Positions 10,929 to 64,000 of a stretch of DNA of 64,000 bases are shown in pieces (the stretch's first letter is position 1; the number at the start of each line of letters is the position of its first letter). The notes under the pieces were generated by a model. It was given only the letters and a program-made list of their open reading frames with translations, searched no databases and had not been told where the DNA came from. This DNA comes from Pantoea sp. At-9b (lineage in GTDB: Bacteria; Pseudomonadota; Gammaproteobacteria; Enterobacterales; Enterobacteriaceae): the NCBI RefSeq assembly GCF_000175935.2, contig NC_014837.1, positions 3,224,001-3,288,000 of the forward strand, read 5' to 3'. The translations under genes and the position numbers were made by a program.

Positions 10929-11910
10929 TACGGTCCCCGGTGTTGGACGCGTGTAAAATATCCTGTTGCAGCAACGGCACAACCACCCGTTGAATCTCCC
11001 CTGCATCAGGAACATGGCGGTACTCAAAAGAACGCTGGTGTTCTGCCAACTGGGCGGTGAGTTCCTGAACGCCGGTGGCGTACACCAGCGCATCGGTCTC
11101 TTTTAATCGTTCACCCAGTTGCGGGTCATCACTTTGCACCACGGTGACCTGAGTGACATGGGGCGCAAAGCGCGCCACGCCAGAGGCCATCAAGGCGGTA
11201 AATTCCGGGAAAATCGACACCACCAGCGTGCGCGTCAGTGGATCGAGCGAAGCCAACGCACGGCGGGTGGCTTCAGACGGAATAAAACTGATATTCAGTA
11301 ACGGTAGCCCCGGAATCAGTTGGCTGACCTCACGCCGACGATGGGCAAAGGTCAACAACAGATCAGCGCTGGCAACTCGCTGACGGAGTAACAGGTCGTT
11401 TTTGATATCAGTGAGGGTTGTCGCCTCGACACGGGCGATGTCACCCAACGCTTCTGCGATGCAATGCGCATAATCGCGTGCCGCATCGATAAAGTTGCCA
11501 ATAAAAAACACCGTCTTCTTCTTCAACTCTCGCTGCCGCTCAGCAAAACGGCTGCTGACCAACGCACCGAGATCCGTTGCGGTTAAGCCCAGCAACATTC
11601 CGCTGTTGATAAACGCATCAAGATGTTGATGCAGCTCGTCAAGAGCCACGTCGGAAGATCCCAGCGCCAGCGCCGCATCGGCAATAAAGGTGCCTGCGCC
11701 CGGCTTGCTGTACACCAGCTCAGCCGCTTTAAGTTCGCGATACACCTGCGCGACAGTCATCGGCGCGACACCGACCTGTTCGGCCATGTCGCGCACCGAG
11801 GGTAGCTGCTCGCCGGGTTTTAACGCGCCAAAGGTGATGGCGTATTCGATAATCCCGCGCAACTGCGCTCCCAGCGGGATTGAAGAGTCACGGTCGAGGT
11901 GGAATTCCAT
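10915..11910 (-). CDS. GntR-type regulator with unusual C-terminal domain
   Basis: 331 residues from the ATG at 11910, which has a good GGCAGG ribosome site; a TTG twelve codons upstream is less likely. Residues about 8-75 are a GntR-family winged helix: IPLGAQLRGIIEYAI, PGEQLPSVRDMAEQVGVAPMTV and SKPGAGTFIA. The rest (about 90-331) is neither FadR/HutC-like nor aminotransferase-like. It has alternating beta/alpha segments such as KTVFFIGNFIDAARDY, LLLTFAHRRREV and TLVVSIFPEF, suggestive of a sugar-binding/periplasmic-protein-like sensor, but I cannot name it. It heads the operon with the hydrolase and two reductases and faces the ABC importer, which it probably controls. Confidence 0.75.
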   Translation of the reverse strand: MEFHLDRDSSIPLGAQLRGIIEYAITFGALKPGEQLPSVRDMAEQVGVAPMTVAQVYRELKAAELVYSKPGAGTFIADAALALGSSDVALDELHQHLDAFINSGMLLGLTATDLGALVSSRFAERQRELKKKTVFFIGNFIDAARDYAHCIAEALGDIARVEATTLTDIKNDLLLRQRVASADLLLTFAHRRREVSQLIPGLPLLNISFIPSEATRRALASLDPLTRTLVVSIFPEFTALMASGVARFAPHVTQVTVVQSDDPQLGERLKETDALVYATGVQELTAQLAEHQRSFEYRHVPDAGEIQRVVVPLLQQDILHASNTGDRNENQ

Positions 11911-54857: not shown

Positions 54858-55241
54858 GGGGCTGATTCTGGATTCGACGGGATTGTGAACCCTTAGGTGC
54901 ATGCCGAGGTGCGGTAGGCCTCGTAAAAAAACCGCAAAAATATAGTTGCAAACGACAACTACTACGACGCACCTGCTGCTCTCGCAGCTTAATCAGCTTA
55001 ATAAACTGAGTGCTCCCTCTCTCCCTAGCCTCCGCTCTTAGGACGGGGATCAAGAGAGGTCAAACCCAAAAGAGATCGCGTGGATGCCCTGCCTGGGGTT
55101 GAAGCGTTAAATCCAATCAGGCTAGTTTGTTAGTGGCGTGTCCATCCGCAGCTGACAGGCGAATGTAAAGATTGGACTAAGCATGTAGTGCCGACGGCGT
55201 AGTAATTTCGGACGCGGGTTCAACTCCCGCCAGCTCCACCA
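54858..55241 (+). ncRNA. ssrA: Transfer-messenger RNA
   Basis: 384 nt, from GGGGCTGATTCTGG to the terminal CCA. The 5' and 3' ends form the alanine tRNA-like domain (the T arm GGTTCAACTCCCGCC and acceptor end CAGCTCCACCA are clear), and pseudoknot regions match E. coli, for example CTCCCTAGCCTCCGCTC. The tag reading frame begins at the resume codon GCA (54948) and stops at TAA (54990-54992). It encodes ANDNYYDAPAALAA, 14 residues against 10 in E. coli (ANDENYALAA), with the conserved ALAA degradation signal. The 3' end is a common integration site; non-core genes follow. Confidence 0.97.
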
Positions 55242-55749: not shown

Positions 55750-56556
55750 GTGGATCTTCTTGAACAGGTTGACGGTAAGCTAACTATTCTCGGTATTCTG
55801 GGTGACCCCATCAGCCAGGTGAAAGCCCCCCTGATGATGAATGCGGAACTCAAACGTCTGCAGATTGCTGATACGTTAATGGTTCCTTTCCATGTCAGCA
55901 GTGAAGGTTTGAGAGGGATGGTCACTGGCCTCAAATCACTGCACAACTTTCGTGGTGCTATCGTCACCATGCCGCATAAGAAAGCGATTCTGCCCTTGCT
56001 CGACCATGTATCAGACCAGGCAAAAGCCATTGGTGCCTGTAACGTTATCAGGAGAGAAGCTGATGGCAGCCTGAGTGGCACCATGCTTGATGGCGAGGGA
56101 CTGGTGAGTAGCCTGATTGCCAGCGGATATGCGGTGCAAAATAAAAGCATCTATCTTGCCGGAGCCGGTGGTGCGGCCTGCGCAATTGCTCATGCCCTTG
56201 CAGCGCATGGTGCAACAACGATCACCCTTTACAACCGCAGCATGGACAAAGCAAAAACACTCCGCCAGGCAATACAGAATCTATATCGCGGCATCACAAT
56301 TAACCTGGGATCAAATGAACCCACTCATCACGACATTATTATTAACGCGACCTCAGTCGGTATGGGGAACGATGCAGATATGCCCTTCTCTCTTGAAAAG
56401 CTACATAACTCTGCGTTGGTCTGTGACATCATCATCTACCCGGAAAAAACTGCATTGCTTCAGGCAGCAGAATTGAAAGGCCATCCCACCCATTATGGTA
56501 GAGCAATGCTACAACATCAGATCAGCCTGATGCGGAAGTATATGTTAAATCAATAA
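55750..56556 (+). CDS. Shikimate dehydrogenase-like (AroE-family) enzyme
   Basis: 268 residues from a GTG with GAGG 6 bases upstream. The substrate domain has LGDPISQVKAPLMMNAEL (about 17-34) and the catalytic lysine in VTMPHKKAI (about 76-84), followed by IGACNVIRR. The NAD(P) domain has LAGAGGAACAIAHALAAHG (about 134-152), NATSVGM near 200 and HYGRAMLQHQ at the end. The ISQVKAP loop differs from the SxS of housekeeping AroE, pointing to a paralogous SDH-like branch acting on shikimate, quinate or a related compound. It stands alone between a terminator and an AT-rich gap; a link with the downstream operon is not shown. Confidence 0.8.
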   Translation: MDLLEQVDGKLTILGILGDPISQVKAPLMMNAELKRLQIADTLMVPFHVSSEGLRGMVTGLKSLHNFRGAIVTMPHKKAILPLLDHVSDQAKAIGACNVIRREADGSLSGTMLDGEGLVSSLIASGYAVQNKSIYLAGAGGAACAIAHALAAHGATTITLYNRSMDKAKTLRQAIQNLYRGITINLGSNEPTHHDIIINATSVGMGNDADMPFSLEKLHNSALVCDIIIYPEKTALLQAAELKGHPTHYGRAMLQHQISLMRKYMLNQ

Positions 56557-56911: not shown

Positions 56912-58345
56912 TTGAATGAGAAGCCACTTGTAGTGGATTTGGATGGTACGTTAATCCATTCAGATATGCTGCACGAATCTGCATTAAGGGTGTTTAGGGA
57001 TAGCCCGTTTGAAACGCTCCGTATTCCATTTCTTTTAAAAAAAGGCAAAGCGTGTTTAAAACAGCACCTTGCCTCACTCACAGAGTTTGATCCCAAGACA
57101 CTTCCCTATAATGAGGAATTGCTTGAATGGCTTAAACAACAACGCGCGGAAGGTCGACATCTGGTGCTGTGTACGGCATCCGATAGCTCAATTGCAAACC
57201 GCATTGCTGAACACTTGGGTATTTTCGACGACGTCATCGCCAGTGATGGTGTTGCCAATATTGAGGGGAAACACAAAGCGGCTGCTTTGGTACAGCGCTT
57301 TCAGCAGCATGGGTATGATTACGCTGGCAACTCAAATGCAGACTTAGCCGTATGGTCGCAAGCTGATAAAGCAATTGTGGTTAATGGTTCAGGCGATCTG
57401 ATTAACAAGGCGCGGGAGATTTCCACCGTTGACCGGGTATTTCCTAAACGCGAAATCGGTTTTTCTGCATGGCGTCGCGTGCTTCGCATTCACCAGTGGT
57501 TAAAAAACATTCTCCTGCTGGTTCCGCTATTTGCCGCCCATGATGTCAGTAATGGTGAAGCCTGGCTATCTCTGCTGTTGGCCTTCATGGCATTCAGCCT
57601 TTGTGCTTCATCCGTTTATATCGCCAATGATTTACTCGATCTCGACAGCGATCGCCTGCATCCGCGCAAACGAAACCGACCATTTGCCTCTGGACTGGTG
57701 CCCGCCTGGATGGGCGTTTTGCTGGCACCCCTGCTGCTGATTATCAGTTTGTCCGTGGCCGCGTTTGTCGGAAAACAGTTTTTCTCCTGGTTGGTTTTCT
57801 ATTTCGCCCTGACGTGCGCCTACTCATGGGTACTTAAACGCTTGATGTTGGTTGATTGCCTCACCCTGGCAATGCTTTATACCTTGCGCATTGTTGCCGG
57901 TGCGGCTGCTGTTGGTCACGAACTCTCCTTCTGGCTGCTGGCATTTTCAGTGTTTCTGTTTCTTTCTCTTGCGTTCGTCAAACGTTACGCGGAACTGGAA
58001 GTTCAACTACTCAGTGGAAAAGAGAAAATTCATGGACGTGGATACCACACCGCTGATGCACCGTTGATTCAGACCATGGGTATTGTGGCGGGTTACACGT
58101 CTGTTTTAGTCCTAGCACTCTATCTGAACAGTGATGCGGTACTGAAGTTATACGCCTCACCGGAACTGATTTGGGGAGCCGTCCCTGTGATGCTGTTTTG
58201 GGTAAGCTGGATGTGGATGCAAGCCCATCGGGGAAAAATGCATGATGACCCTCTGGTCTTTGCCGTCAAAGATCGTGCAAGTCTGAGCGCAGGTGTCATT
58301 TTCGCCGCCATCCTGGTCGCCGGTACTGTGGGGGTCTCATGGTAG
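56912..58345 (+). CDS. HAD phosphatase-UbiA prenyltransferase fusion (DPPR synthase-like)
   Basis: 477 residues from a TTG with GGGAG 7 bases upstream. Residues 1 to about 185 are a HAD phosphatase: motif I VVDLDGTL with D9 and D11, motif II LCTASDSS. Residues about 187-477 are a multi-membrane UbiA prenyltransferase, with the Mg/diphosphate motif NDLLDLDSD (N239, D240, D243, D247) followed by RLHPRKRNRPFASG. These residues resemble mycobacterial decaprenyl-phosphate 5-phosphoribosyltransferase, which couples PRPP to polyprenyl phosphate. The fused HAD domain would suit removal of the 5-phosphate from the product (inference). First gene of the operon; it overlaps the DprE1-like gene by 7 bases. 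Confidence 0.85.
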   Translation: MNEKPLVVDLDGTLIHSDMLHESALRVFRDSPFETLRIPFLLKKGKACLKQHLASLTEFDPKTLPYNEELLEWLKQQRAEGRHLVLCTASDSSIANRIAEHLGIFDDVIASDGVANIEGKHKAAALVQRFQQHGYDYAGNSNADLAVWSQADKAIVVNGSGDLINKAREISTVDRVFPKREIGFSAWRRVLRIHQWLKNILLLVPLFAAHDVSNGEAWLSLLLAFMAFSLCASSVYIANDLLDLDSDRLHPRKRNRPFASGLVPAWMGVLLAPLLLIISLSVAAFVGKQFFSWLVFYFALTCAYSWVLKRLMLVDCLTLAMLYTLRIVAGAAAVGHELSFWLLAFSVFLFLSLAFVKRYAELEVQLLSGKEKIHGRGYHTADAPLIQTMGIVAGYTSVLVLALYLNSDAVLKLYASPELIWGAVPVMLFWVSWMWMQAHRGKMHDDPLVFAVKDRASLSAGVIFAAILVAGTVGVSW

Positions 58346-59631
58346 CAATCACTTCATGGGGCCGTCTGTCACGTGATGAGCATAAGGTGGTCGCACTTAG
58401 CGATCGCGGCCAAATCCCGGCCAGCCTCACGGCACCCGGTCTGGCTCATGGCATGGGACGAAGCTACGGTGACGTCTGTCTGAACCCGCAGGGCGAGCTG
58501 TGGCTGACGCCCGGGCTTGACCACTTTATCTCCTTCGATGAAAGCAGTGGTCGTCTGGTCTGTGAGGCTGGGGTTCTGTTGCAGGACATCCAGAGACTGA
58601 TGATTCCACGTGGCTGGATTCTGCCCGTCACTCCGGGAACGCAGTTGGTCACCGTGGGTGGCGCCATCGCTAATGATGTGCACGGCAAGAACCACCATGT
58701 GGTGGGTTCCTTCGGCGATCACATCAAAAGTCTGACCCTGATCCGGACCGATGGTGAAATCATTCAGTGTGGCCCAGACGAACGGCCAGATTGGTTCGCC
58801 GCCACTGTCGGTGGAGTGGGTTTGACCGGTGTGATCACCACTGCCGAGATCCAGCTTCGCCCGGTTGCTGGTCCCTGGTTGGACACTGAGACCATTCCTT
58901 TCGACAACCTGGACGCGTTTTTCCAACTTGCCGATGGCTCCGAAGCGCAATGGGAGCACACGGTTTCGTGGATCGACTGCATCTCAGGAGGGGGAGGACG
59001 AGGTTTGTTTATGCGTGGTAATCCTGCTGATTTAAAAGATCGACAGGCTCCCAAGTCAGGCAAACTCACCATGCCCATCGTGCCACCGGTCTCAATGGTC
59101 AACCGACTGACACTGCGTCCCTTCAATATGACCTACTACCATCTCAAAAAGTGGCGGGCAGGAAGGGAAATCGCCCATTACGAACCCTTTTTCTATCCCC
59201 TGGACAATTTACTGCACTGGAACCGCATGTACGGTCCCAAAGGCTTTTTCCAGTATCAGAGTGTCGTGCCGCGCGAGGTTGGACAGGACGCGGTTCAGGC
59301 CATGTTGAAGGAGATCGCCCGTTCAGGTGATGGCTCTTTCCTCGCCGTGCTCAAAACTTTTGGCAACCGACAAGCCATGGGGATGCTGAGCTTCCCGCAA
59401 CCCGGGGTCACTCTGGCGCTAGACTTCCCCAATCACGGGAACCGTACACATAAACTCTTCGAACGACTGGATGCCATCGTGCGTGAAGCGAAGGGCCGTA
59501 TCTACCTGGCCAAAGATGCACGTATGCCAAAAGATCTGTTCGAGGCGGGCTATCCGCGCCTGGCCGAATTTATCCAATATCGAGACGCAGGCATCAGCTC
59601 AGGTCTCTCACGCCGCCTAATGGGAAGTTGA
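58339..59631 (+). CDS. DprE1-like FAD oxidase (decaprenylphosphoryl-ribose 2'-oxidase type)
   Basis: 430 residues. The VAO-type FAD domain shows HGMGRSYGD (37-45), TPGTQLVTVGGAIANDVHGKNHHVVGSFG (98-126) and ATVGGVGLTGVI (155-166), closely resembling the mycobacterial DprE1 motif GGAIACDIHGKNHH. FFQYQSVVP near 305 and the substrate lysine K392 (YLAKDAR) also match. The position of the DprE1 cysteine attacked by benzothiazinones (C387) is A360 here (TLALDFP). DprE1 oxidises the ribose 2'-hydroxyl of polyprenylphosphoryl-ribose to the keto intermediate. There is no signal peptide. It overlaps the upstream gene and abuts the next. Confidence 0.88.
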   Translation: MVAITSWGRLSRDEHKVVALSDRGQIPASLTAPGLAHGMGRSYGDVCLNPQGELWLTPGLDHFISFDESSGRLVCEAGVLLQDIQRLMIPRGWILPVTPGTQLVTVGGAIANDVHGKNHHVVGSFGDHIKSLTLIRTDGEIIQCGPDERPDWFAATVGGVGLTGVITTAEIQLRPVAGPWLDTETIPFDNLDAFFQLADGSEAQWEHTVSWIDCISGGGGRGLFMRGNPADLKDRQAPKSGKLTMPIVPPVSMVNRLTLRPFNMTYYHLKKWRAGREIAHYEPFFYPLDNLLHWNRMYGPKGFFQYQSVVPREVGQDAVQAMLKEIARSGDGSFLAVLKTFGNRQAMGMLSFPQPGVTLALDFPNHGNRTHKLFERLDAIVREAKGRIYLAKDARMPKDLFEAGYPRLAEFIQYRDAGISSGLSRRLMGS

Positions 59632-60384
59632 ATGAAGCTTAAGAAGAAGATCGTCATCGTTGGTGCAACCTCTGCGATTGCTGAACAGTGCGCACGGTTG
59701 TGGGCGAAAGAAAACCCGTCCGAGATCGTGCTGGTCAGTCGAAATCAGCAAAAAGCCGAGCGCGTTGCCTCAGATCTTAAAGTACGCTCCCCGGAAACGA
59801 CAATCACTAACCTTCAGGTAGATTTTCTCGACCCGCGTCAAATTCAGGATCTGGTTGATCATATCTATCAGGCAGGAAATGTTGATATTGCGCTGGTTGC
59901 GCACGGTTCTTTACCTGACCAGGAAGCGTGTCAGAATGATCTCACGCTCTGTCGTGAAGCGCTGGACGTCAATGGCTTATCACCCATGCTGTTTGCCGAA
60001 GCCTTTGCTATGCACATGCAGCAAGCGAAAAACGGAACCCTGGCTATCATTGGTTCCGTCGCGGGTGACCGGGGTAGAAAATCCAACTATGTCTATGGTG
60101 CGGCAAAGGGATTGGTAGCCAGCTATGTTCAGGGCTTACAACACCGTTTCGCCAATACAAATATTAACGTGGTTTTAATTAAGCCTGGTCCGACCGATAC
60201 GCCGATGACCGCACATCTCAAACAATCCGGTGCCAAACTCGCTGCTGTTGACCGCGTGGCCGCGGAGGTGGTGCGTGGCATTGAAAGTGGACAACGAGTT
60301 GTATACACTCCGAAAATTTGGTCGGTAATCATGATGGTTATTCGCAATCTGCCGCATTTCGTATTTAAAAGGTTGGATATTTAA
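59632..60384 (+). CDS. DprE2-like SDR reductase
   Basis: 250 residues, starting on the base after the DprE1-like stop codon. A short-chain dehydrogenase with nucleotide motif VGATSAIAEQCARLWA (about 10-25), catalytic S142 (IIGSVAGDRG) and YxxxK at Y155-K159 (YGAAKG). The C-terminal segment IWSVIMMVIRNLPHFVFKRL is amphipathic and may hold it at the membrane. Next to DprE1, the expected role is NADH-dependent reduction of the 2'-keto intermediate to polyprenylphosphoryl-D-arabinofuranose, the epimerised product. It overlaps the following gene by one base. Confidence 0.85.
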   Translation: MKLKKKIVIVGATSAIAEQCARLWAKENPSEIVLVSRNQQKAERVASDLKVRSPETTITNLQVDFLDPRQIQDLVDHIYQAGNVDIALVAHGSLPDQEACQNDLTLCREALDVNGLSPMLFAEAFAMHMQQAKNGTLAIIGSVAGDRGRKSNYVYGAAKGLVASYVQGLQHRFANTNINVVLIKPGPTDTPMTAHLKQSGAKLAAVDRVAAEVVRGIESGQRVVYTPKIWSVIMMVIRNLPHFVFKRLDI

Positions 60385-62762
60385 TGTCAGGATTGAAAGC
60401 GAATATGGCTTCAGGAAGGAGCGCTAACCTGAATAATCACCATCCCATAAAAGACGCACTCTTTTTATTGGCACTATTACTGGTGTCGATTGCTGTTTTT
60501 GTTCCCTTGTCACCCAGAATGCCGTGGGAAGGCCTCGATCCATCCTGGTCTTATGGGATGAATGAGGCGCTGGCTCACGGAATGTCTATTGGCAAAGACA
60601 TCATTTTCACCTTCGGACCCTACGCATCAATTTATACGCAAAGTTACCATCCAGCCACGGACCATTTGATGATATGGGGAGCACTTTATCTTGCCATTTC
60701 ATTCGCTATCGCTGTCTGGCTTAACTTTAGAGTCAGCGGATGGCCGTTAAAAATTGCAGTCCTGGCTGTTCTGAGTGCATTAATATATGGCCGTGATGCA
60801 CTATTTTTCTTCTATCCCATGCTGGTTGGTATCCAGGTTTATCGTTGGGCGATCGCCTTCGATACCAAACAAACGATGACACGGGGTGAATGTTCGCTTA
60901 TCGTCGCCTTATTTTCGCCGTTTGGTTTATTACCACTGATTAAAGGTTCGACACTGGTAGCATGCGTAGCAATCTCTATTTTCTCGATTGCTCTGCTGGC
61001 AAAAAGAAGGCAATGGAAACTTTCGCTCCTGATTGTTGCAACCTTTTTAGTCTCAACCGCAATTTTTTGGGTATTTTCCGGGCAGCCATTAAGTGGACTG
61101 GCTGATTATTTTATCGGCCTGACCCCCATCATTAGTGGTTACACCGAGGCCATGGCAACCAATGGCGATTTGTCTCAGTGCGTCCTTTATATCGTGGCAA
61201 CAGCAGCCATGGCCGGGTTCCTGCTGTATGGAACTCGCGGGACGTTTTACGACAAATCGGTTGTTACGCTGCTTTTTCTTTGTATTCTCTTTTTAGCTTT
61301 CAAGGCAGGTTTCGTCCGGCATGACGGCCATGCGCTCATTTGTGCCTCGATGATTCTCCTTGGGGCCTTACTGGCAGGAACACTGCTTCCCGCACGTAGC
61401 GCAGTAGCCGTTATCGTAGTCTGTTTAATTACATGGACTTACATCGATATTGCCTATATCAAGAAACCCGTTGATAGCGTTAAAAACAATTTCATAAATA
61501 CGTTCTCCAATTCATGGGATGGACTAAAACAGCGCATACTGGAACCTCAAGCGCTGGCAAAAGATTTTGAAGAACGTGTCAATCTGCTCAAAAAACGCGG
61601 AGGCATTCCAAAGCTTAACGGCACCGTTGATATATATTCATTTGATCAAGCCTATTTGCTCGCATCGGGAAATACGTGGAGTCCACGCCCCATTTTGCAA
61701 AGTTATTCGGTCTACACCCCGAAACTGGCAGAATTGAATAAGATGCACCTTCTCGCAGCGAACAGGCCAGATAATATCGTCTTCAATGTTCAGCCCATTG
61801 ATAAGAGATTGCCATCACTGGAGGATGGTGCGAGTTGGCCTGTTTTATTGTCCAATTATCAACCCACATCATTTGCGGGTGGCTACCTTTACCTTAAGCA
61901 TCGAGACACGCCAAATCCGACATCCGAACCTTCAGAAAAAATAGGCGGAGGTTTTTATTCATTTGGTGATACGGTCAGTTTGCCTGATTCCCACACGCCG
62001 ATATTTGCGAAGCTAACTATTCGCAAAAGTTTTGCTGGCTCCATCCTGAATACGTTATTCAAGCCAAGCCAGCTTCAGATGAAACTGACCATGCAAAATG
62101 GTGTTACACGCAGCTACAGAATCATCTCGGGAATGACGGAGTCGGGTTTTATTATTTCTCCCTTGATTGAAAATACTGCAGAATTTGGGCTACTTTCCGC
62201 CAGTGCAGATTACCTCAAGGATAAGAGAGTTAAATCGATTGAGATTTCCGCCACCGACCTCCCCTTCCTTTGGAAAAGGTCGTTTAACATCGAATTTTAT
62301 GCTCTCAACTACCCATCCTCACCGGATGACATTAATTTGCTGGGCTTTGCTAAACCTCAGCCAGAAACATTTAAAAATACAACATTCGTTCAGCAATGCA
62401 GTGGCAGCATTGATTCTGCGAATGGTGTTTCGCCCTCATCTGGCTTAGTTAAAACGTCAACTTTACTGAATGTTCAGGGATGGCTGGTCGCTTCCGTGAC
62501 ACCGGCTCAACTCCCGGATAACGTTTATGTGATGCTGTCTGATGCCGATGGCAAGCGTTTCTTATTTAACGCTCAGCGTAAGTCACGCCCGGACGTTGGT
62601 GCATATTTAAAGCAACCATCACTAAATTCATCCGGTTACGAACTGACAGCCGACGTGTCAAAATTAAATGGGGACTATAAGTTGGGACTTGCATACTCAA
62701 AAGACAACGAACTCTTTATATGCCCCCAATTCAAAGTTCCGGTTAAGATATCTCAGGAGTAA
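60384..62762 (+). CDS. Large polytopic membrane protein, candidate GT-C glycosyltransferase
   Basis: 792 residues; I recognise no named family. About 11-12 membrane segments occupy residues 25-365, followed by roughly 425 residues that should lie in the periplasm. The first periplasmic loop carries WEGLDPSWSYGMNEALAHG (acidic D52 and E61) and KDIIFTFGPYA, in the place where GT-C enzymes such as Emb, Aft and PMT proteins keep their catalytic aspartate. Context with DprE1/DprE2-like enzymes suggests transfer of polyprenyl-phosphate-linked arabinofuranose to a glycan or protein on the periplasmic side. This is inference: an exporter/flippase or a structural glycan protein is possible. The coding region is AT-richer than its neighbours. 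Confidence 0.6.
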   Translation: MSGLKANMASGRSANLNNHHPIKDALFLLALLLVSIAVFVPLSPRMPWEGLDPSWSYGMNEALAHGMSIGKDIIFTFGPYASIYTQSYHPATDHLMIWGALYLAISFAIAVWLNFRVSGWPLKIAVLAVLSALIYGRDALFFFYPMLVGIQVYRWAIAFDTKQTMTRGECSLIVALFSPFGLLPLIKGSTLVACVAISIFSIALLAKRRQWKLSLLIVATFLVSTAIFWVFSGQPLSGLADYFIGLTPIISGYTEAMATNGDLSQCVLYIVATAAMAGFLLYGTRGTFYDKSVVTLLFLCILFLAFKAGFVRHDGHALICASMILLGALLAGTLLPARSAVAVIVVCLITWTYIDIAYIKKPVDSVKNNFINTFSNSWDGLKQRILEPQALAKDFEERVNLLKKRGGIPKLNGTVDIYSFDQAYLLASGNTWSPRPILQSYSVYTPKLAELNKMHLLAANRPDNIVFNVQPIDKRLPSLEDGASWPVLLSNYQPTSFAGGYLYLKHRDTPNPTSEPSEKIGGGFYSFGDTVSLPDSHTPIFAKLTIRKSFAGSILNTLFKPSQLQMKLTMQNGVTRSYRIISGMTESGFIISPLIENTAEFGLLSASADYLKDKRVKSIEISATDLPFLWKRSFNIEFYALNYPSSPDDINLLGFAKPQPETFKNTTFVQQCSGSIDSANGVSPSSGLVKTSTLLNVQGWLVASVTPAQLPDNVYVMLSDADGKRFLFNAQRKSRPDVGAYLKQPSLNSSGYELTADVSKLNGDYKLGLAYSKDNELFICPQFKVPVKISQE

Positions 62763-62765
62763 ATT

Positions 62766-63704
62766 TTGCTGCAAAAAAAGATAATACTTTCTGGTGGCGC
62801 AGGCCTGGTTGGTCAAAATCTGGTGGCCCGACTGAAAGCGAAAGGCTACTCAAACATTGTTGTTCTCGATAAGCATCGCAACAATCTTGAGGTGCTCAAA
62901 CGCGTTCAGCCCGACATCACTGTCGAGTATGCCGATCTTGCCGAACCGGGTCAGTGGCAGCAACACTTCGTGGGTGCGGATGTCGTGGTGATGTTGCAGG
63001 CGCAGATCGGCGGCAACGATTACCAAGAGTTCGTGCGGAACAATATCGATTCGACCCGTCTCCAACTGGATACCATCAAAGCGAACAATGTGCCGTATAT
63101 GGTGCAGATCAGCTCCTCGGTCGTCGAATCAGTGGCGGATGATTTCTATACCAACACCAAAAAGGAACAAGAGAAAATGGTGTTGGAATGTGGTATCCCC
63201 TGCCCCATCTTGCGCCCGACGTTGATGTTTGGCTGGTTCGACCGCAAACACCTCGGCTGGTTATCACGCTTTATGAAGAAGGTACCGGTGTTCCCGATTC
63301 CGGGAGATGGCCGTTATATGCGTCAACCTCTGTACGTTGGTGATTTTGCCAATATCATCATCAGTTGTATCGAGAATGGCATCCGTGATGGCGTGTACAA
63401 CATCTCAGGTCATGAAAAAATCGACTACATCGACATGATTCGCGAGATCAAACGTGCGATTCGCGCAAAAACGCTAATTTTACGTATCCCATATTCACTT
63501 TTTTATGCCCTGTTATGGGTTTGGGGCAAGTTTGATAAAAACCCGCCCTTTACCACCCAGCAGTTGGCCGCTTTGACGGCGAAGGATGAGTTTGAGGTGA
63601 TCGATTGGCCTGGAATCTTCGGTGTTCCTTACACCCCATTCAGGGCCGCTGTGGATGAAACCTTTAATGATCCGCGCTATAGCGGCGTAGAGCTGGAGTT
63701 TTAA
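62766..63704 (+). CDS. NAD(P)-dependent sugar epimerase/reductase, extended SDR
   Basis: 312 residues from a TTG with AGGAG 6 bases upstream, only 3 bases after the previous stop. The Rossmann motif GGAGLVGQN (10-18), an active-site serine run (SSS, 116-118) and YxxxK (Y128, K132 in YTNTKKEQE) are intact. The segment RYMRQPLYVGDFANIII and a hydrophobic stretch LRIPYSLFYALLWVWG (about 239-255) suggest action on a membrane-bound (polyprenyl-linked) or nucleotide sugar. Exact substrate unknown. It may convert a precursor to a second sugar in the same glycan, together with the FAD enzyme that follows. Confidence 0.75.
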   Translation: MLQKKIILSGGAGLVGQNLVARLKAKGYSNIVVLDKHRNNLEVLKRVQPDITVEYADLAEPGQWQQHFVGADVVVMLQAQIGGNDYQEFVRNNIDSTRLQLDTIKANNVPYMVQISSSVVESVADDFYTNTKKEQEKMVLECGIPCPILRPTLMFGWFDRKHLGWLSRFMKKVPVFPIPGDGRYMRQPLYVGDFANIIISCIENGIRDGVYNISGHEKIDYIDMIREIKRAIRAKTLILRIPYSLFYALLWVWGKFDKNPPFTTQQLAALTAKDEFEVIDWPGIFGVPYTPFRAAVDETFNDPRYSGVELEF

Positions 63705-63705
63705 G

Positions 63706-64000
63706 ATGGGACAACGAATTGCAGTATTGGGCGCGGGTCCAATGGGCTTGGCCGTGGCTTACCAGTTGGCACTTGATGGGCACACGCCGGTACTTTTCGA
63801 GGCTGATGACCGTGTCGGCGGCATGACCGCGACGTTTGATTTTGGCGGCCTGGAAATCGAGCGCTACTACCACTTCCATTGCATTTCCGATCACGCGTTT
63901 CTGCAGGTACTCAATGAACTGGGCATTGCCGATCGGATGCAATGGACAGAAACCAAGATGGGCTACTGGTATCAGGGGCGTTTGCAGCCTTGGGGTAACC
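63706..64000 (+). CDS. FAD-dependent amine-oxidase-type oxidoreductase, N-terminal part
   Basis: Starts at the ATG at 63706, one base after the previous stop, and runs off the window after about 98 codons. The N-terminus has the dinucleotide motif RIAVLGAGPMGLAVAYQLA (about 4-22), the acidic end of the second strand (FEADDRVGGM) and GGLEIERYYHFHC. This pattern fits the protoporphyrinogen-oxidase/amine-oxidase or UDP-galactopyranose-mutase superfamily. A mutase-like or sugar-oxidising role would fit the operon, but the fragment is too short to decide. Confidence 0.7.
   Translation, partial: MGQRIAVLGAGPMGLAVAYQLALDGHTPVLFEADDRVGGMTATFDFGGLEIERYYHFHCISDHAFLQVLNELGIADRMQWTETKMGYWYQGRLQPWGN

Follow-up and report, generated by a model that had tools for sequence, protein, structure and literature searches.

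Eight consecutive plus-strand genes, with intergenic gaps of -7 to +3 nt, begin at position 56912 of the window (the whole 64,000-nt stretch that we analysed, G000:C1:3224001-3288000, from the 6.3 Mb genome of Pantoea sp. At-9b). The first three encode a HAD phosphatase-UbiA fusion of the polyprenyl-phosphate phosphoribosyltransferase (PPPRS) type (56912..58345; 477 aa, TTG start), a DprE1-like FAD oxidase (58339..59631; 430 aa) and a DprE2-like short-chain dehydrogenase/reductase (SDR; 59632..60384; 250 aa). Downstream lie a membrane protein that is a candidate GT-C glycosyltransferase (60384..62762; 792 aa), an extended SDR resembling epimerases and dehydratases (62766..63704; 312 aa, TTG start) and a PRK07233 flavoprotein of 436 aa, whose gene occupies 63706..64000 of the window and ends beyond it. 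In a stretch that runs past the window end (L004, whose positions 859-1242 are window positions 54858-55241), this gene ends at 11017 and is followed by genes for GtrA (L004 11014-11403; 129 aa; PF04138, E 1.3e-12) and an LPG_synthase_TM/AglD-like protein (L004 11400-12383; 327 aa; PF03706); a terminator-like hairpin, a pattern match only, lies at L004 12864-12883, beyond an additional 118-aa open reading frame (ORF).

An initial annotation of this DNA had claimed three adjacent ORFs for a UbiA protein with a fused phosphatase, a DprE1-like and a DprE2-like enzyme, and both their coordinates and their Pfam and NCBIfam matches bear this out. The candidate transferase that it named downstream is present and models as a GT-C enzyme with AftA as top match, and the two further enzymes are there too; what it could not show was the continuation of the operon past the window, with the flavoprotein end, GtrA and a second membrane protein, and the standing of the SDR and flavoprotein as a conserved pair. 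Gene order is identical in Pantoea sp. AS-PWVM4 and Erwinia sp. OLFS4, which argues that the operon is not a chance arrangement; the best operon matches of the source genome are in Pantoea and Erwinia. The operon itself is confirmed, and its interpretation as a D-arabinofuranose (D-Araf) system is well supported by homology.

The product of the first gene matches the Pfam UbiA (E 1.9e-23) and HAD (E 8.2e-11) domains, and combines a HAD phosphatase with a UbiA domain carrying NDxxDxxxD and RxxE motifs. It scored 689.5 bits against NF006088 (PRK08238; cut-off 351); the next-best models were the decaprenyl-phosphate phosphoribosyltransferases NF008976-8, at 159, 145.6 and 116 bits, each below its cut-off (234, 207 and 474, respectively). 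The UbiA match is common to quinone and haem enzymes, so on this match the protein could be a prenyltransferase acting on aromatics or haem precursors, with unrelated oxidoreductases as neighbours; we consider this extremely improbable, as models for haem-o synthase and 4-hydroxybenzoate octaprenyltransferase scored 38 and 37 bits, the only PDB sequence relatives at E <= 0.001 were M. tuberculosis DPPR synthase 8j8j and 8j8k, the phosphatase is fused, the operon with its DprE1, DprE2 and GT-C genes is conserved, and two further UbiA genes in the genome, which score 239 and 210 bits against the Pfam model, can cover those roles. The phosphoribosyltransferase identity proposed by the initial annotation was supported, and a quinone or haem placement was rejected, here by profile scores and a PDB sequence search in place of a structure-based alignment.

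The UbiA-domain residues N239, D240, D243, D247, R358 and E361 do not vary among the 22 relatives counted; D9 and D11 of the phosphatase are kept in 21 of these, the remaining one having a gap. Seven of 29 relatives had been excluded as short or weak; four of the seven are UbiA-sized, at 287-307 aa, a length at which the phosphatase domain is probably missing. For Citrobacter youngae ORF15, Kelly et al. 2024 (PMC11127046) tested N247, D248, D251, D255, R366 and E369 along with D18 of the phosphatase; the six Pantoea UbiA residues are spaced exactly as in this biochemically tested protein, and D9 is likewise present.

The second protein matches FAD_binding_4 (E 1.4e-17), aligns with M. smegmatis DprE1 (PDB 4aut) at E 7.8e-74, and contains HGKNHH at residues 115-120. 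The lysine K392 and the HGKNH and YGD motifs are all in place in the alignment to 4aut; we assume for K392 the catalytic role, and for the two motifs the roles, that they have in DprE1. Y43, H115 and K392 occur in 29 of the 29 relatives counted (two of 31 were dropped). Ala360 aligns with a cysteine of M. smegmatis DprE1 that is presumably the benzothiazinone target, and is alanine in 28 of the 29 relatives and serine in the other. The third protein matches adh_short (E 1.1e-31) and has a triad, S142, Y155 and K159, found in all 23 relatives counted (one of 24 was dropped). The likeness to DprE1 and DprE2 was thereby upheld, and profile searches agreed on likeness to the DPPR synthase, DprE1 and DprE2 families, but the curated equivalog cut-offs were not reached: the DprE1 equivalog NF053785 gave 353 bits over residues 3-416 (cut-off 500), while the DprE2-like SDR scored 258 bits with PRK07102 and, in second place, 160 bits with NF053786 (DprE2; cut-off 250), both below cut-off. 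Both proteins lie outside the mycobacterial equivalogs and, judged by homology and conserved residues, are probably relatives that work like the mycobacterial enzymes.

The 792-aa protein had no match in Pfam or NCBIfam. The best structural match of its model was AftA, and every VIA-align row confined to residues 12-513 is a GT-C enzyme, a modest fold match; two Integrator chains in the same list also cover part of the membrane region, at an rmsd of 19-20. The model has a C-terminal beta domain at approximately residues 671-792, and when the GT-C alignment was searched against PDB sequences, an amidase (E 0.01) and ND6 (E 0.2) came up. On its predicted fold, the protein is a candidate GT-C glycosyltransferase, with at least 1049 relatives; none of the 120 listed has a Pfam domain.

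A profile search of genome contigs with the GT-C alignment yielded 79 loci, 34 of them with a DprE1 relative in the same stretch; alongside it, these 34 hold PPPRS (31), DprE2 (33), GtrA (29) and AglD-like (11) genes. For 32 of the remaining 45 loci, DprE1 lies elsewhere in the genome (26 of 37 plus 6 of 8; with L042, which was the 38th genome of the larger test set, the count there is 27 of 38). Two of these 32 loci, L047 and L086, share a genome with a locus carrying the full module. Overall, 66 of the 79 loci are in genomes with DprE1, against 70 of 369 genomes in a class-wide control. Because the loci span several phyla and many come from Legionella, they are not independent, nor is the comparison with the control a strict one. 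The GT-C family tracks DprE1. One Crenothrix locus (L062) reads PPPRS-DprE1-DprE2-GT-C-GtrA, without the SDR and flavoprotein in the stretch read. Twelve Legionella loci (L039, L041, L043, L046, L047, L049, L053, L055, L057, L060, L061 and L065) have GT-C relatives and no DprE1 in the stretch; DprE1 relatives elsewhere in these genomes have 35-37% identity, with an additional one of 66% in L. gratiana, and L. gratiana excepted, none has the flavoprotein at E <= 1e-60.

We propose, with good though not complete confidence, that these genes form a self-contained cassette for extracytoplasmic glycosylation, making a D-arabinofuranose-type sugar and transferring it from a lipid donor. The fused HAD domain would strip the 5-phosphate to leave ribofuranose on undecaprenyl phosphate (undP), the DprE1-like oxidase would produce a 2-keto sugar, and the DprE2-like SDR would reduce this to undP-D-arabinofuranose; homology and conserved residues argue for these donor steps. 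For what follows, we infer that the extended SDR and flavoprotein may perform a further redox step on the lipid-sugar or on the lipid, that GtrA, and perhaps the AglD-like protein, could flip the lipid-sugar, and that the GT-C protein might move the sugar in the periplasm onto an O antigen, another polysaccharide or a protein whose genes lie elsewhere. Support for the cassette comes from the grouping of the UbiA domain with DPPR synthase rather than quinone or haem enzymes, the active-site spacing shared with ORF15, the conserved DprE1 and DprE2 residues, the AftA match of the 792-aa model together with the link of its family to DprE1, the Crenothrix set without the SDR and flavoprotein in the stretch read, and published Araf systems with DprE1/E2 homologues. 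Of three components, lipid-sugar synthase, flippase and GT-C, the first and second are represented by PPPRS and GtrA, and the third by the modest fold match. No pilin or O-antigen genes were noticed by eye among neighbouring ORFs, only some of which were family-searched. The D-Araf donor route that the initial annotation put forward is supported by homology, with surface decoration as a putative role, and qualified by the mycobacterial cut-offs and by the prior Citrobacter systems.

The mycobacterial decaprenylphosphoryl-arabinose pathway (Rv3806c, Rv3807c, DprE1/DprE2, Rv3789, AftA/Emb) has in common with the operon relatives of DPPR synthase, DprE1 and DprE2, a small proposed flippase (Rv3789, which we take to belong to the GtrA family) and a GT-C enzyme, AftA, nearest to the Pantoea model. 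In contrast, the Pantoea phosphatase is a fused HAD domain, an undecaprenyl carrier is expected, scores fall under the equivalog cut-offs, there is an extra SDR and flavoprotein, and alanine replaces the DprE1 cysteine. Within Enterobacteriaceae, lipid-pentofuranose systems have already been published for Citrobacter, and Kelly et al. describe such systems as widespread, including Araf-containing examples with DprE1/E2 homologues and more elaborate ones in Xanthomonas with several candidate epimerases or GT-Cs (PMC11127046). The C. youngae O1/O2 three-component system also has HAD fused N-terminally to a UbiA PPPRS with the same catalytic spacing, a lipid-linked pentofuranose donor, a flippase and a GT-C enzyme to set beside the Pantoea candidate, with an auxiliary SDR epimerase in O2; the Pantoea operon adds DprE1- and DprE2-like genes and the flavoprotein, has GtrA (and the AglD-like protein) as its likely flippase where Citrobacter has MATE, and has no O-antigen genes noticed beside it. 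No MATE family Pfam match was found among the eight operon products. In Pseudomonas aeruginosa, TfpW puts alpha-1,5-linked D-Araf onto pilins; like the proposed Pantoea route, the group IV pilin system joins a Gram-negative D-Araf pathway to a GT-C transferase (PMC11841053), whereas no pilin gene was noticed beside the Pantoea operon. Given the widespread systems reported by Kelly et al., those with Araf having DprE1/E2, the operon core is a further instance of an already known type of pentofuranose system; what goes beyond it is the combination with GtrA, an unclassified GT-C family and the SDR-flavoprotein pair. Literature searches for Pantoea or Erwinia arabinofuranose and for the locus names gave, judged from listings, nothing relevant beyond PMC11127046.

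The extended SDR matches Pfam Epimerase (E 1.9e-18); Y128 and three glycines occur in all 27 relatives counted and K132 in 26, the other having a gap (four of 31 relatives were dropped). The flavoprotein scored 579 bits against NF005560 (PRK07233; cut-off 252), and its model is closest to plant phytoene desaturase, followed by protoporphyrinogen oxidase. At the 34 GT-C loci with a local DprE1, identity is 47-81% for the flavoprotein (outside L026 and L027) and 47-83% for the SDR. Five of these loci are without the flavoprotein (L042, L044, L062, L067 and L094), the stretches of L044 and L067 ending near the GT-C gene; it is found in 10 of the 38 genomes of the larger test set above, that of L042 included. 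The six-gene set PPPRS-DprE1-DprE2-SDR-flavoprotein-GtrA was seen in enterobacteria, pseudomonads, burkholderias, Agrobacterium and green sulphur bacteria. The SDR and flavoprotein travel as a conserved pair, pointing to an extra step in lipid-linked pentose metabolism; no description of the pair was found in the literature searched, mostly at listing level.

One possible, if tentative, alternative, less likely than not, is that the cassette's product is a pentofuranose other than D-arabinose, the pair altering the DprE1/DprE2 product (for example, by C3 epimerisation to lyxofuranose, or a change at C5) and the GT-C protein transferring that sugar. This would fit the presence of the flavoprotein at 29 and the SDR at 28 of the 34 GT-C loci that have DprE1 in the same stretch, and the recurrence of the six-gene order, by annotated product names, on plasmids of Burkholderia stagnalis, Agrobacterium salinitolerans and one Rhodobacteraceae strain. 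It would also fit the association with DprE1: in the 369-genome sample, DprE1 is present in 13 of the 14 genomes that have the flavoprotein and in 57 of the 355 that do not, and it is present in the genomes of all 34 flavoprotein loci among the 79 GT-C loci; in Citrobacter O2, moreover, one extended SDR converts the ribose donor to xylose (PMC11127046). However, the same source gives lyxofuranose as absent from all solved carbohydrate structures, and GT-C relatives occur without the flavoprotein in the Crenothrix stretch read and in the Legionella genomes tested, L. gratiana excepted. Distant flavoproteins near GtrB-like GT2 genes, and a relative in a genome without DprE1 (G700), further speak against restriction of the wider family to a pentose substrate. 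A different and unlikely explanation is that the pair edits the polyprenyl carrier rather than the sugar, for instance by saturating or desaturating an isoprene unit, to give a dedicated lipid pool. We also suggest, with considerable reserve, that the six-gene set might be a donor cassette common to many bacteria, supplying either a lipid-linked pentofuranose not described before (D-Araf modified by the SDR and flavoprotein, possibly lyxofuranose-like and in no known glycan) or a polyprenyl carrier edited by redox chemistry; the Pfam-less GT-C family would be one of the transferase families that serve it.

A steady tie between flavoprotein and DprE1 fails for distant flavoprotein relatives (G203, 29% identity; G700, 33%), the one in G700 being above the family cut-off. 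Distant PRK07233 flavoproteins also lie near GtrB-like GT2 genes at L131, L170, L171 and L172, together with AglD-like proteins (L131 and L170, by eye) or an extended SDR (L171 and L172), and members above the cut-off occur in two controls, Haloferax volcanii and Methanosarcina acetivorans, archaea with dolichol-type carriers. The data suggest that the wider PRK07233 family accompanies several lipid-sugar systems.

With this operon, a putative D-arabinofuranose-type route, best known as a tuberculosis drug target, is placed in enterobacteria associated with plants, and a candidate GT-C family without a Pfam domain becomes available for testing; the finding would gain weight if the SDR-flavoprotein pair proved to produce a novel sugar or to edit a lipid.

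The NF006088 cut-off was passed in 2 of 198 genomes of a GTDB family sample and 4 of 60 of a genus sample, the source genome counted in each. The operon lies between a tmRNA gene (window 54858-55241) on one side and a conserved 118-aa ORF and QueH on the other. Among nine congener stretches compared around QueH, one (G956) has the operon at this site; two (G954 and G946) lack it, with about 1.3 and 2.3 kb from tmRNA to the 118-aa ORF; in another (G935, L154 3029-14884) the site is filled by other DNA of about 11 kb, at the far end of which part of the tmRNA 3' end is repeated; and the other five have no full tmRNA gene within the stretch. This pattern fits an integration hotspot, and gain of the operon by transfer is therefore likely. 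E. coli genomes gave no DNA match to the operon's first three genes. A phage origin was rejected: there was one weak phage match (37% over 31% of the query), the only PHROG match among six operon proteins scanned was a weak one for the flavoprotein (residues 3-66), and a single-sequence query found no confirmed relative of the UbiA protein in viral contigs.

Between the tmRNA gene and the operon lies a shikimate-dehydrogenase-like gene (window 55750-56556; 180 bits to TIGR00507, cut-off 200), which looks decayed in Pantoea sp. AS-PWVM4 (L026) and in L153, where only the last 64 and 89 codons match. The tag peptide predicted for the tmRNA at 54858-55241 is ANDNYYDAPAALAA, which we take to be longer than the enterobacterial tmRNA tag.

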